A stretch of DNA of 35,039 nucleotides from positions 1-35,039 of the forward strand of contig DATHUY010000020.1 of NCBI GenBank assembly GCA_035461765.1, read 5' to 3'. Under the pieces are notes generated by a model. It worked only from the letters and a program-made list of their open reading frames with translations. It searched no databases and was not told the origin of the DNA. Every line of letters starts with the position of its first letter. Position 1 is the stretch's first letter. Source of the stretch: Longimicrobiales bacterium (GTDB taxonomy: Bacteria > Gemmatimonadota > Gemmatimonadetes > Longimicrobiales > RSA9). Of the stretch, positions 20,868-24,534 are shown piece by piece. Made by a program: the position numbers and the translations under genes.

Positions 20868-23800
20868 TCAATGGAAGTCACGGGACCGGAAATTCAACTT
20901 CTCGCGCCGCCCTGCCTCCCGCGCGGTCCGTCCCACCTTCAGCTCGCGGAACCTCCGGCCGACGATGTTCATCACCATGTCCTCACGCTCGAATCGTCCC
21001 TCGACGGCGAGGAACGGCGCGTGCCTGACCACCTCGCGATTCTCCTGGTACAGCGGCCGCGGCACGATCACGTTCATGTAGCCGAACTCATCCTCGAGCA
21101 GAATGAAAACCGTACCTTTCGCCGTCGCCGGATGCTGGCGCGCGACCACGAGACCCGAGACCACGATGCGGCTGCCCGGCGGATGCCGCTGGAGATCCGC
21201 GCTCGAGGTGACACCCAGCTCGTTCAGGCGCGCACGCATGTGCTCCATCGGGTGACCATCGACACAGATCCCCGTGGCCAGATAGTCCAGGAAGATCCGC
21301 TCCTCACCATCCAGCTCGCGCGGCTCGAACACGAGCGTGCGCGCCGGCGCGAGCGGCAGCACATCACCAGCGACCCGGAGCGCCTCCCATGCAGCCCGTC
21401 GCCGACCCGGCTCGAACGCTTCGAATGCACCGGCACGCGCCAGATGAATCGCATCGGCGCGGGACAGCTGCGCCCGTCTCACCACATCCGCAATGCTGGT
21501 GAACGGCCCCTGCACGTGAGCGGCCTGGAGAGCCTCGCGCGCGCCGTTGCCGAGGCCGCGAATGTGGCGCCAGCCTATGCGGAGGGCGGGAGAGGGAGAG
21601 GGATCAGGGGGAACAACAACTTCATTCACCACAGAGCACTCAGAGCACTCAGAGGACGGATTTTTCACCACAGAGCACACTGAGCACACTGAGGACGGAT
21701 CATTTTTTTCAACTTCAACAGATTCCCGGCCGGCTTGCTCCCGATGCGGCTCCGGCTGTTGCTGTTGCTGTTGCTGTTCAAAAAATGAATCCGTTGTCTG
21801 TGCTCTGTGTGCTCTGTGTGCTCTGTGGTTAAATTTTCGTTGTTCCCCTTCCCCTGCCCCTGCCCCTGCTCCGTGTGCTCCTGAAATCTCGATCGTACAA
21901 TCCCACTCCCCATCCCTCAGACACGGCCCGAGCACTCTGACGCCGTGGCGCCGCGCATCGTGGACGAGCGTGGCGGGCGGGTAGAAGCCCATGGGCCAGG
22001 CGTTGAGCATGCCGAGGAAGAACTCGGCGGGATAGTTCGCCTTCAGGTAGGCGGTTGCGTACGCGATGAGTGCGAAGCTCCACGCGTGGCTCTCGGGGAA
22101 GCCGTAGTTCGCGAACGAATAGAGATCCTGGACGACCTCTTCGGCCACCTCGGGAGCGACACCGCGGGCGACGCAGGCATCGTGAAGGCGCCTGAGTGCA
22201 GCGTGCAGCTTCGGCAGCTTTCTCCTGTGCCCCATCGCGCGACGCAGCTCATCGGCCTCGCCTGCAGTGAAGCCGCCGAGCGCCATGCTGATGGCCATGG
22301 CCTGCTCCTGGAAGATCGGGACGCCGTAGGTGCGGCGCAGGATCGGCTCGAGGACGGGATCGGGATAGTGAACGGTCTCGCGGCCGCGCCGCCGCTCGGT
22401 GTAGGGATGGACGAAGCGCGCCTGGATGGGCCCCGGCCGGATCAGCGCGACCTGCACGACAATGTCGTAGAGCCGTTCGGGCTTCGTCTGCAGGATCGAC
22501 TGGATCTGGGCGCGGCTCTCGATCTGGAACGTACCGACCGTGTCGCCGCGCGCGATCATGTCGTACGTCTTCGCGTCATCGACCGGCAGCCGGTACATCT
22601 CCATCTTCTCACCTGTCCGCTTCTCGATCGCATCGAACGACAGATGGATGGCGGACAGGCCGCCGAGTCCGAGGAAATCGAACTTCGGGACGCCAGCCTC
22701 GTCGAGGTCATCCTTGTCGAACTGCAGGATGGTGCGCCCCATGGTGGTGTGCTCGATGGGCATGTAATCGCCGAGCAGCGCGGACGAGAGCACGAAGCCA
22801 CCGGGATGCGTCGAGCGCAGGCGCGGCACATCGTCCAGGACCGGGAGGGCAGACAACAGTGCGCGACCCTTCGCGTCACCCAGATCCAGGCCGTGCGCCT
22901 CCGCAAGGCCGCCCTTCAGCTCTTCGACGGCGGCGGACGGCTCCATATGATGCATGCGCTTCGACAGTGCAAACGCCTGCTCCGCCGGATAGCCGAGCGC
23001 GCGCATCATGTCCTGCAGCGCGGTGGGCGCATGGTATGCCTGCGTCACGCACGTGATCGCGGAGTGCGCCCGGCCGTAGCTGTCGTACATGTAGTCGAGC
23101 ACCTCCTCGCGCCGGTGCATCTCGAAGTCGACATCGATGTCCGGCGCCTCCGTGCGCCCGTCCGTGCGTACCTCCGAGAGAAAGCGCTCGAACAGCAGCC
23201 CGTGACGGATCGGATCGACGGCCGTGATGCCGAGACAGTACGCGACCGCACTGTTCGCCGCGCTGCCGCGTCCCTGACACAGGATGTCGCGGCTGCGGGC
23301 GAATCGTATTGCATCCCACATGACAATGAAGAAGCCGGCGAAGTCGAGGCGTCCGATGACGCCCAGCTCGTGCTCGATCTGCGCACGCTGCCGCTCGTCC
23401 AGCTCACCCCATCGCTCGCGTGCTCCCTCGTACACCAGGTGACGCAGCCACGTGATGTCCGTCTCACCTGGCGGCACACGGAAGTGCGGCATCGGCGGGC
23501 GCAGCCAGCGCAGATCGAACGGTGCACAGTCCAGCGCGATGTCGCGCGTCGCCTCGATCCCCACCTCCCTGCCCTGCCACAGCTGCGCCATCTCCTGCGG
23601 CGACTTGAGCCGCCACTCGCCGTTCGGCAGCAGCAGTCCCCACGACGCCGCAGTGTGCACGCACACGTCCGCACGGTTCGCCGTCAGCAGGTCGTGCACC
23701 AGACGGCCGGCACTGTCGACATACCGCGGATCGTTCGACACGCACCACTTCGTGCGGCTCTTCTCCGCCAGCTCGATCAGTGCTCCTGCAAGTGCGGCTT

Positions 23801-24455
23801 CGTGGCCGCCCACATGATGCAGCTGCACTTCCAGCGCGAGCCGCTCCCCGAACACGTCGCGCCACCGCTCCAGCTGGAACAGCGCCTCACTGCGACGCTC
23901 CGTCCGCACCAGTGTCGCAAGCTCGCCCGTCGACGGACCCGTCAGACACCAGACGCCGCCCGCGTGATCAATCAGATCATCGAACGTCAGCGACGCGCGG
24001 CCGCGCTCCGGCAGCGGCACCGCATACTTCCGCTCCAGGTTGACACCCCTGTCGTTCTCGCGCCGGCGTCGGACTTCGGGGACGAAACCGGGAGCGGGAG
24101 CTGGAGCGTGTTCGTGTGGGGGAGCGGGTCTGACGGCGGCAGAGTCCTGCCAGCGGGCGACATCGCCCAGCCGTGACTTCGTCACGAGTGCGGCGATGTT
24201 GCGGTAGCCCTCCGCGTCGCGCGCGAGCAGCGCCATCGGGTGGCCGTCGACCTTCAGCTCCACTCCCGCGATCGGCCGGATGCCCGCCTTCTCCGCCGCC
24301 AGCGTGAAGCGGATCACACCGCCGACATCGGCCGTGTCGGTGAGGCCCAGCGCAGCGTACCCGAGTTGCGCGGCGCGTTCGACCAGCGACTCCGGCGTCA
24401 CCGTGCCGTCACCGAAGGAGAACGCCGAGTGCGTGCGTAGTTCTGCGTAATTCAA
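20868..24455 (-). CDS. dnaE2: Error-prone DNA polymerase DnaE2 (ImuC) with in-frame insertion
   Basis: A C-family polymerase of 1195 residues, longer than usual (about 1020-1080). It acts in damage-induced mutagenesis, usually with ImuA/ImuB, which are not in the window. The PHP-like domain (1-100) begins YAELRTHSAFSFGDG; metal residues are partly lost (Arg7, Thr41), as is common in DnaE2. The catalytic aspartates are Asp439 and Asp441 (PDIDVDFE) and Asp593 (KFDFLGLGGL). Other blocks are GRGSAANSAVAY, GVPIFQEQAM and NYGFPESHAWSFALIAYA. The C-terminal OB region ends SRDFH, typical of DnaE2. Two additions stand out: a Pro/Arg-rich linker at about 103-151, and residues about 862-956, a repeat-built insertion between WDCTIE and ALRIGWRHIRGLG. 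The frame stays open throughout. The start is a TTG at 24455. Confidence 0.92.
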   Translation of the reverse strand: MNYAELRTHSAFSFGDGTVTPESLVERAAQLGYAALGLTDTADVGGVIRFTLAAEKAGIRPIAGVELKVDGHPMALLARDAEGYRNIAALVTKSRLGDVARWQDSAAVRPAPPHEHAPAPAPGFVPEVRRRRENDRGVNLERKYAVPLPERGRASLTFDDLIDHAGGVWCLTGPSTGELATLVRTERRSEALFQLERWRDVFGERLALEVQLHHVGGHEAALAGALIELAEKSRTKWCVSNDPRYVDSAGRLVHDLLTANRADVCVHTAASWGLLLPNGEWRLKSPQEMAQLWQGREVGIEATRDIALDCAPFDLRWLRPPMPHFRVPPGETDITWLRHLVYEGARERWGELDERQRAQIEHELGVIGRLDFAGFFIVMWDAIRFARSRDILCQGRGSAANSAVAYCLGITAVDPIRHGLLFERFLSEVRTDGRTEAPDIDVDFEMHRREEVLDYMYDSYGRAHSAITCVTQAYHAPTALQDMMRALGYPAEQAFALSKRMHHMEPSAAVEELKGGLAEAHGLDLGDAKGRALLSALPVLDDVPRLRSTHPGGFVLSSALLGDYMPIEHTTMGRTILQFDKDDLDEAGVPKFDFLGLGGLSAIHLSFDAIEKRTGEKMEMYRLPVDDAKTYDMIARGDTVGTFQIESRAQIQSILQTKPERLYDIVVQVALIRPGPIQARFVHPYTERRRGRETVHYPDPVLEPILRRTYGVPIFQEQAMAISMALGGFTAGEADELRRAMGHRRKLPKLHAALRRLHDACVARGVAPEVAEEVVQDLYSFANYGFPESHAWSFALIAYATAYLKANYPAEFFLGMLNAWPMGFYPPATLVHDARRHGVRVLGPCLRDGEWDCTIEISGAHGAGAGAGEGEQRKFNHRAHRAHRAQTTDSFFEQQQQQQQPEPHREQAGRESVEVEKNDPSSVCSVCSVVKNPSSECSECSVVNEVVVPPDPSPSPALRIGWRHIRGLGNGAREALQAAHVQGPFTSIADVVRRAQLSRADAIHLARAGAFEAFEPGRRRAAWEALRVAGDVLPLAPARTLVFEPRELDGEERIFLDYLATGICVDGHPMEHMRARLNELGVTSSADLQRHPPGSRIVVSGLVVARQHPATAKGTVFILLEDEFGYMNVIVPRPLYQENREVVRHAPFLAVEGRFEREDMVMNIVGRRFRELKVGRTAREAGRREKLNFRSRDFH
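21625..21702 (+). repeat. Two tandem 39-bp repeats (CCACAGAGCAC family)
   Basis: Copy A (21625-21663) and copy B (21664-21702) both start TTCACCACAGAGCAC and contain GAGGACGGAT. They agree at 33 of 39 positions by my alignment. On the dnaE2 strand they encode two related 13-residue units containing Cys-Ser-x-Cys-Ser-Val-Val. The period is a multiple of three. Confidence 0.85.
21755..21778 (+). repeat. Hexanucleotide microsatellite (GCTGTT)4
   Basis: Four exact GCTGTT copies encode a run of seven glutamines in DnaE2 (residues about 894-900). A second hexamer run, CCCCTG x3 at 21851-21868, encodes the Gly/Ala run near residue 865. Both periods preserve the frame, but slippage could change length. 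Confidence 0.85.
21796..21837 (-). repeat. Third CCACAGAGCAC repeat, inverted orientation
   Basis: On the minus strand this copy reads AAAATTTAACCACAGAGCAC and continues as ACAGAGCAC units with a 9-base period. It is inverted relative to copies A and B and forms the other arm of the insertion. It encodes the His-Arg-Ala-His-Arg-Ala run of DnaE2 (about 877-885). Confidence 0.8.
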
Positions 24456-24497
24456 AGATCCCGGACGAGAGGTTGAGGTAGGTCGAGGACAACGGAC

Positions 24498-24534
24498 TTT
24501 TTACCACAGAGCACACGGAGCACACGGCGGACGG
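24498..24534 (+). repeat. Fourth CCACAGAGCAC repeat, upstream of dnaE2
   Basis: TTTTACCACAGAGCACACGG continues as AGCACACGGCGGACGG, matching copies A and B inside dnaE2 closely and in the same orientation. It lies 43 bases upstream of the dnaE2 start codon, in the 298-base gap 24456-24753, and so probably within the dnaE2 leader or promoter. Apart from this copy and the aquaporin terminator hairpin I see nothing else in that gap. Confidence 0.75.

Follow-up and report, generated by a model that had tools for sequence, protein, structure and literature searches.

An in-frame palindromic repeat in dnaE2 of a Longimicrobiales bacterium, at a hairpin turn that carries unrelated palindromic repeats in other phyla

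The error-prone polymerase gene dnaE2 of a Longimicrobiales bacterium carries an in-frame block of inverted repeats whose arms recur as a family of short palindromic elements dispersed through the same genome. The gene lies in a 35,039-nucleotide stretch of one contig, referred to here as the window. We estimate at roughly three in four the probability that a copy of this family integrated at the turn preceding the HhH domain of DnaE2 and was tolerated there, and that the same turn has been entered repeatedly by unrelated repeats in other bacteria. The recurrence of unrelated repeats at one turn is more important than the window's insert itself. Coordinates of the features are given in Table 1.

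The dnaE2 product scores 1004 bits against the NCBIfam model for error-prone DNA polymerase (NF004225, cut-off 939) and contains the Pfam domains PHP, DNA_pol3_alpha, finger, and HHH_6. A second PolIII alpha copy, 35% identical, is the separate replicative DnaE of the same genome (G000:C51, where G000 is our label for the window's own genome). The nearest DnaE2 from a named genome, that of a Gemmatimonadaceae MAG, is 67% identical over half of the protein. The limits of the insert were set by alignment with 30 relatives. The interval between WDCTIE and ALRIGW comprises 100 residues in the window's DnaE2 (857–956) and about 8 in relatives that have no interruption there (for example G031, G025, and G037), a net gain of about 92 residues; the block is bounded by WDCTIE on one side and by ALRIGWRHIRGLG on the other. 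A preliminary description of this DNA had reported an in-frame inverted-repeat block here and called for an alignment of DnaE2 proteins, which confirms both the block and the gap in relatives. Its position was correct, and its extent of about 95 codons (residues 862–956) was slightly short.

Table 1. Features of dnaE2 and its repeat insert, in window coordinates.
Feature	Position	Strand	Evidence
dnaE2 (error-prone DNA polymerase III alpha paralogue, 1195 aa)	20868..24455	-	ORF; NCBIfam NF004225; Pfam
In-frame insert/linker, residues 857-956, between strands WDCTIE and ALRIG	21588..21887	-	Alignment, AlphaFold2, RNA hairpin
Outer inverted arm GGGGAACAAC, G-rich tract outside	21608..21617	+	100% complementary to 21839-21848 (repeat search)
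Left element arm: two 39-bp units TTCACCACAGAGCAC-N2-GAGCAC-N2-GAGGACGGAT, 9-bp period	21625..21700	+	Repeat search, TRF period 39, consensus of 24 copies
Spacer containing an inverted repeat (TCATTTTTT/AAAAAATGA) and a (GCTGTT)4 microsatellite whose reading gives poly-Gln	21701..21796	+	Repeat search, TRF
Right element arm TCTGTGCTCTGTGTGCTCTGTGTGCTCTGTGGTTAA	21797..21832	+	Inverted relative to left arm, 82-95% complementary
Outer inverted arm GTTGTTCCCC, then CCCCTG repeats to 21869	21839..21848	+	Repeat search, TRF
Lone half-element (single arm, same family), 36 bp upstream of dnaE2 start	24492..24534	+	88% identity to left arm; exact motif 24504-24523

The insert is built from nested repeats. 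Tracts of GGGAGA (2.7 units, 21588–21603) and CCCCTG (4.2 units, 21845–21869) accompany the outer arms, and the inner arms are 9-bp-period arrays built on CCACAGAGCAC (CAGAGCACT at 21632–21654 and TGTGCTCTG at 21799–21827), the left one doubled as a 39-bp direct repeat (89%). The (GCTGTT)4 run in the spacer occupies 21755–21778. The longest inverted arms reach 44 nt at 82% complementarity. All of the repeats named in the preliminary description are present (6-, 9-, and 39-base repeats, perfect 10-bp arms, G-rich outer tracts, and inverted repeats), and ORF and repeat analysis agree with it that the periods of 6, 9, and 39 are all multiples of three and that the frame contains no stop. The inverted-repeat score of 66 compares with a codon-shuffle mean of 21 and was reached by none of 300 shuffles. 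The mRNA strand is predicted to form one long hairpin of -136.2 kcal/mol (z -7.6), and none of 200 shuffles was as stable. The arm motif occurs five times in the window against an expectation of 0.01. A search of Rfam with the repeat returned no family at gathering score and only a sub-threshold miRNA match.

Searching the window's own genome with the insert, as the preliminary description had proposed, revealed a dispersed inverted-repeat family: 87 arm matches resolve into some 25 elements, most of them paired, across about 20 contigs. The insert arms match about 24 other loci at 80–100% over 30–60 nt. In the consensus of 24 copies, the arm reads TTCACCACAGAGCAC-N2-GAGCAC-N2-GAG and returns in inverted orientation after a spacer. 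The arms start TTCACCACAGAG, are arrays with a 9-bp period, and are not palindromic in themselves; the copies have no conserved GTAG/CGTC end. The inverted arms measure 30–45 nt in nearly all copies, total copy length including the arms is 103–439 bp, and the copies have no coding capacity of their own. All but one of the 25 copies are intergenic, the dnaE2 copy being the sole exception; copy counts derive from BLAST matches and gene calls from a simple codon model rather than a trained gene finder, so both are approximate. At least one of the six frames is open in 18 of 24 complete copies, and the length is divisible by three in 8 of 24. In-frame landing is therefore not rare, and incompatible landings would be removed by purifying selection. 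A terminator role for the family was considered and rejected, as copies sit between convergent, tandem, and divergent genes alike in the same codon-model calls.

Several individual copies have features of their own. Four of them (L034, L028, L031, and L021) carry an extra outer inverted stretch, about GGGCTGCCGAACGG / CCGTTCGGCAGCCC, and given this stretch the full element may extend past the arms used here. The closest sister of the dnaE2 element is L036 (G000:C83 74938-75163), a few bases before a gene that reads like trehalose synthase. The single arm upstream of dnaE2 has no inverted partner, whereas most other family copies are paired.

We compared the window's genome with G001, a genome of the same genus whose DnaE2 is 91% identical to that of the window. 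No member of the repeat family was found in the G001 genome, which is also empty at three intergenic positions, orthologous and aligned on both flanks. Either the family spread after the two species split or it was lost from G001, and spread is the simpler reading. No target-site duplication could be defined at the three empty sites, where the flanks are too diverged. At the dnaE2 site itself, G001 has a linker of about 22 residues, so that linker length differs between species, and this linker ends with a matching GTTGTTGTTCCC-CTCTCCC-type stretch. Given this matching end, some of the insert's structure may be older than the split. Possibly the CACAGAG element is nested in an outer G/C-rich palindrome of greater age; alternatively, the core may have been lost from G001.

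The location of the insert in the protein was examined with an AlphaFold2 model built from 36 DnaE2 sequences. The model has a mean pLDDT of 81. The polymerase outside the insert is well folded, and the insert is predicted to be a disordered loop with pLDDT of about 30, all model residues from 859 to 951 falling below 50. The flanking strands 853–855 and 956–958 are kept; model numbering is ORF numbering minus one. The insertion site is a β-hairpin turn directly before the HhH domain, and in alignment it falls on the turn within E. coli HFHVNDDGEIVYG and on the corresponding turn of Taq Pol III alpha. On this model, an insertion here would be of the least disruptive kind, because a hairpin-turn insertion keeps the two strand ends together. 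The earlier interpretation holds in part. Its idea of a repeat element turned protein linker is supported: the insert belongs to a dispersed family absent from G001 and from orthologous intergenic sites, and it is predicted to be a disordered loop. The word "domesticated" goes further than needed, since tolerance suffices to explain the data.

We then surveyed 109 DnaE2 genes, with 80 DnaE2 loci from named genomes; most of the genomes compared are drafts. Inserts of at least 20 residues occur at the pre-HhH turn in 21 of the 109 genes. The runner-up among internal positions, which follows the PHP domain, has them in 8 genes, all of one family. At that second site the DnaE2 of the window's bacterial family has a length-variable loop, predicted to be disordered (window about 24000–24140, residues 106–152); the window's loop contains a CGGGAG run, and that of G004 (L047) a significantly palindromic insert. 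At the pre-HhH turn, the longest class of linkers (100 nt or more, with a large excess) has 16 members, of which 13, the window's included, are more palindromic than codon shuffles, and these 13 genes come from the same order, Planctomycetes, Acidobacteria, Thiobacillus, and Thiodictyon. The long linkers of G008 (L043), G011 (L050), and L128 are not palindromic against shuffles. That of G010 (L049) is borderline (4 of 300 shuffles); it was left out of the palindromic count and lies outside the own-genome search. Among the matches listed, the replicative DnaE encoded by the same genomes shows no interruption at the homologous position.

The repeats at the turn differ from lineage to lineage. 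Relatives of the same order carry arrays of CGCGGAGAGCGC (G005), CACAGAGGCACGGAG (G006), CCGAATCCGAAT (G004), AGTGCGAAAGTGCG (G013, G017, and G033), and AGTGCCC (G029). Thiobacillus and Planctomycetia have CTCTCCCC palindromes, Pirellulales GGGGAGA-type arrays, Thiodictyon GCCAAGACGCCAAG, and Acidobacteria a 31-nt perfect palindrome. BLAST between linkers sorts them into roughly nine unrelated types. Linkers searched in their own genomes match many other places there, with match counts (which take in the self-match and both arms) of 39 in G005, 20 in G006, 82 in G033, 30 in G004, 82 in G029, 17 in Thiobacillus, 79 in Thiodictyon, 85 in the Planctomycetia MAG, and 56 in the Pirellulales MAG; the Acidobacteria linker has just 4, a weak result. 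None of 40 sampled repeat copies (20 from G033 and 20 from G044) lies inside another gene; five G033 copies at first placed inside genes proved to be in shadow frames. Taken across these genomes, one surface loop of DnaE2 appears to be a recurrent landing pad for selfish DNA in several phyla.

Two further patterns emerged from the survey. The CTCTCCCC-type palindrome is alike in L114 (Thiobacillus) and L089 (Planctomycetia), two genes from different phyla, at 85–89% over 44–46 nt, a hint of either sharing or convergence of this repeat type. The Acidobacteria DnaE2 genes L101 and L108 have apparent extra inserts near reference positions 81 and 862, some of them palindromic; colonization would seem to have reached more than one loop of the same protein.

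The reading we favor can be set out as a sequence of steps. A short, non-autonomous, palindromic dispersed repeat would integrate, presumably by transposition, into dnaE2 at the β-hairpin turn before the HhH domain. The copy would read through without a stop, probably be translated, and add only a disordered loop where the strand ends adjoin, and for these reasons the polymerase would still fold and the insertion, probably neutral for the enzyme, would escape purifying selection. Its length would change later as units of 6, 9, and 39 bp, all multiples of three, were gained or lost. In other lineages the same turn would be entered repeatedly by whichever palindromic repeat is active there, and entries elsewhere in genes would be lost. 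DnaE2 is an SOS polymerase and dispensable for growth, which would lower the cost of insertion further.

A different history would have a single old palindromic insertion in the ancestor of the bacterial family, later overwritten by gene conversion with each genome's active intergenic repeats, and hence few separate insertions within the order. Such a history fits the longer-than-basic linker in all family-f1 genomes with DnaE2, the block end common to G001 and G000, and a stretch of 31 nt at 87% common to the linkers of G005 and G000. However, the f1 linkers are mostly unrelated in sequence and vary in length between about 50 and 500 nt, an insert is present in some and missing from other f3 genomes of a single genus, and the Planctomycetes, Acidobacteria, and two Proteobacteria would remain unexplained. 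We regard this account as rather unlikely overall; single entry per clade with overwriting may hold within the order, not between phyla.

Selection could instead have kept the insert, if the loop or the strong mRNA hairpin affected how DnaE2 works, is expressed, or binds partners, one conceivable outcome being a mutator state. The very stable hairpin is compatible with this, as is the recurrence of one site in one repair polymerase when none of the copies sampled from two other genomes lies in another gene. Against it, the inserts have no common sequence, length, or composition, most DnaE2 genes have none, and the site is a disordered turn, as neutral tolerance predicts, so that we consider a selected function improbable. 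An assembly or binning artefact, with a repeat collapsed into dnaE2, is highly improbable: the genome is a 171-contig draft and repeats are a common cause of misassembly, but the block is in frame, free of stops, and mid-contig, and in-frame repeats occupy the same site in more than ten separate assemblies. Equally remote is local slippage, in which duplication and hairpin-templated copying would have enlarged a short linker with no element entering; the several microsatellites with periods of 6, 9, and 39 might suggest it, but slippage confined to dnaE2 cannot produce the matching arms at some two dozen other loci.

The window's element resembles several known systems, each in part. Like bacterial MITEs such as ERIC, Correia/NEMIS, and Nezha, it is short, non-coding, dispersed, mostly intergenic, and has inverted ends (PMC10969869), with many copies under about 600 bp and terminal inverted repeats, and in-frame fusion of MITEs to genes occurs at times (PMC2759123). 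The label "MITE-like" given earlier is only an analogy. The ends are not simple terminal repeats, since each arm is a tandem array; neither a target-site duplication, looked for at the three empty sites, nor a partner transposase with matching ends was found. The search for an autonomous partner covered Y1 transposases, and none examined carries the arms. G000 has two weak Y1 matches, neither with arms nearby; Y1/RAYT matches are weak or absent in G005 and G006, and G033 has a Y1/RAYT gene without a flanking repeat. A RAYT/Y1 transposase was therefore rejected as the mover. REPs of the GTAG/CGTC type are self-palindromes of 20–40 bp that end in GTAG or CGTC and are often accompanied by a RAYT (PMC3733652), whereas the window's element consists of paired inverted 9-bp-period arrays about 100–260 bp apart, with no such end and no RAYT.

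Among coding palindromes, the classic case is the Rickettsia palindromic elements (RPE; Ogata et al. 2000), repeats of about 100–150 bp that lie in frame within protein genes and are translated as extra residues with function apparently kept (PMC10969869). RPEs occur in dozens of unrelated genes of one genus and encode conserved peptides, whereas the window's family is almost wholly intergenic, with one turn of one gene as the exception, and unrelated repeats behave likewise in other phyla. Coding palindromes of nematomorph mitochondria are also long inverted repeats kept within reading frames, but they are mitochondrial, perfect, and apparently maintained, and do not belong to a dispersed intergenic family (PMC6649704). 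In-frame repeats in dnaE2 are not new, because Di Nocera et al. (2013) listed REPs inside DnaE2 and other repair genes, sometimes the sole genes hit in a species, offered flexible linkers as one explanation, and speculated on mutator effects of REP-tagged repair genes (PMC3733652). In that study, inserts in genes of the same category lay at different sites, except for recB in two Xanthomonas species (PMC3733652). As far as we found in the literature consulted, mostly openly accessible papers, what is new is the exact common site, its location at a hairpin turn, the unrelated repeat types in several phyla, and the tandem-array inverted repeat family.

A stronger reading is that the pre-HhH turn is a favored or selected landing site across bacteria, with selfish repeats and the SOS mutagenic polymerase interacting. 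We judge this improbable; if true, the loop might, for example, tune DnaE2, or DnaE2-dependent repair might help the repeats to spread. With this recurrence, the earlier remark that repeats favor repair genes becomes a claim that can be tested at a single site, and gene sequences at the turn can be used to follow the activity of elements. Repeat insertions in genes are nearly always lost, and a turn that in several phyla has accepted palindromic repeats of unrelated types thus records naturally where a polymerase tolerates extra sequence.
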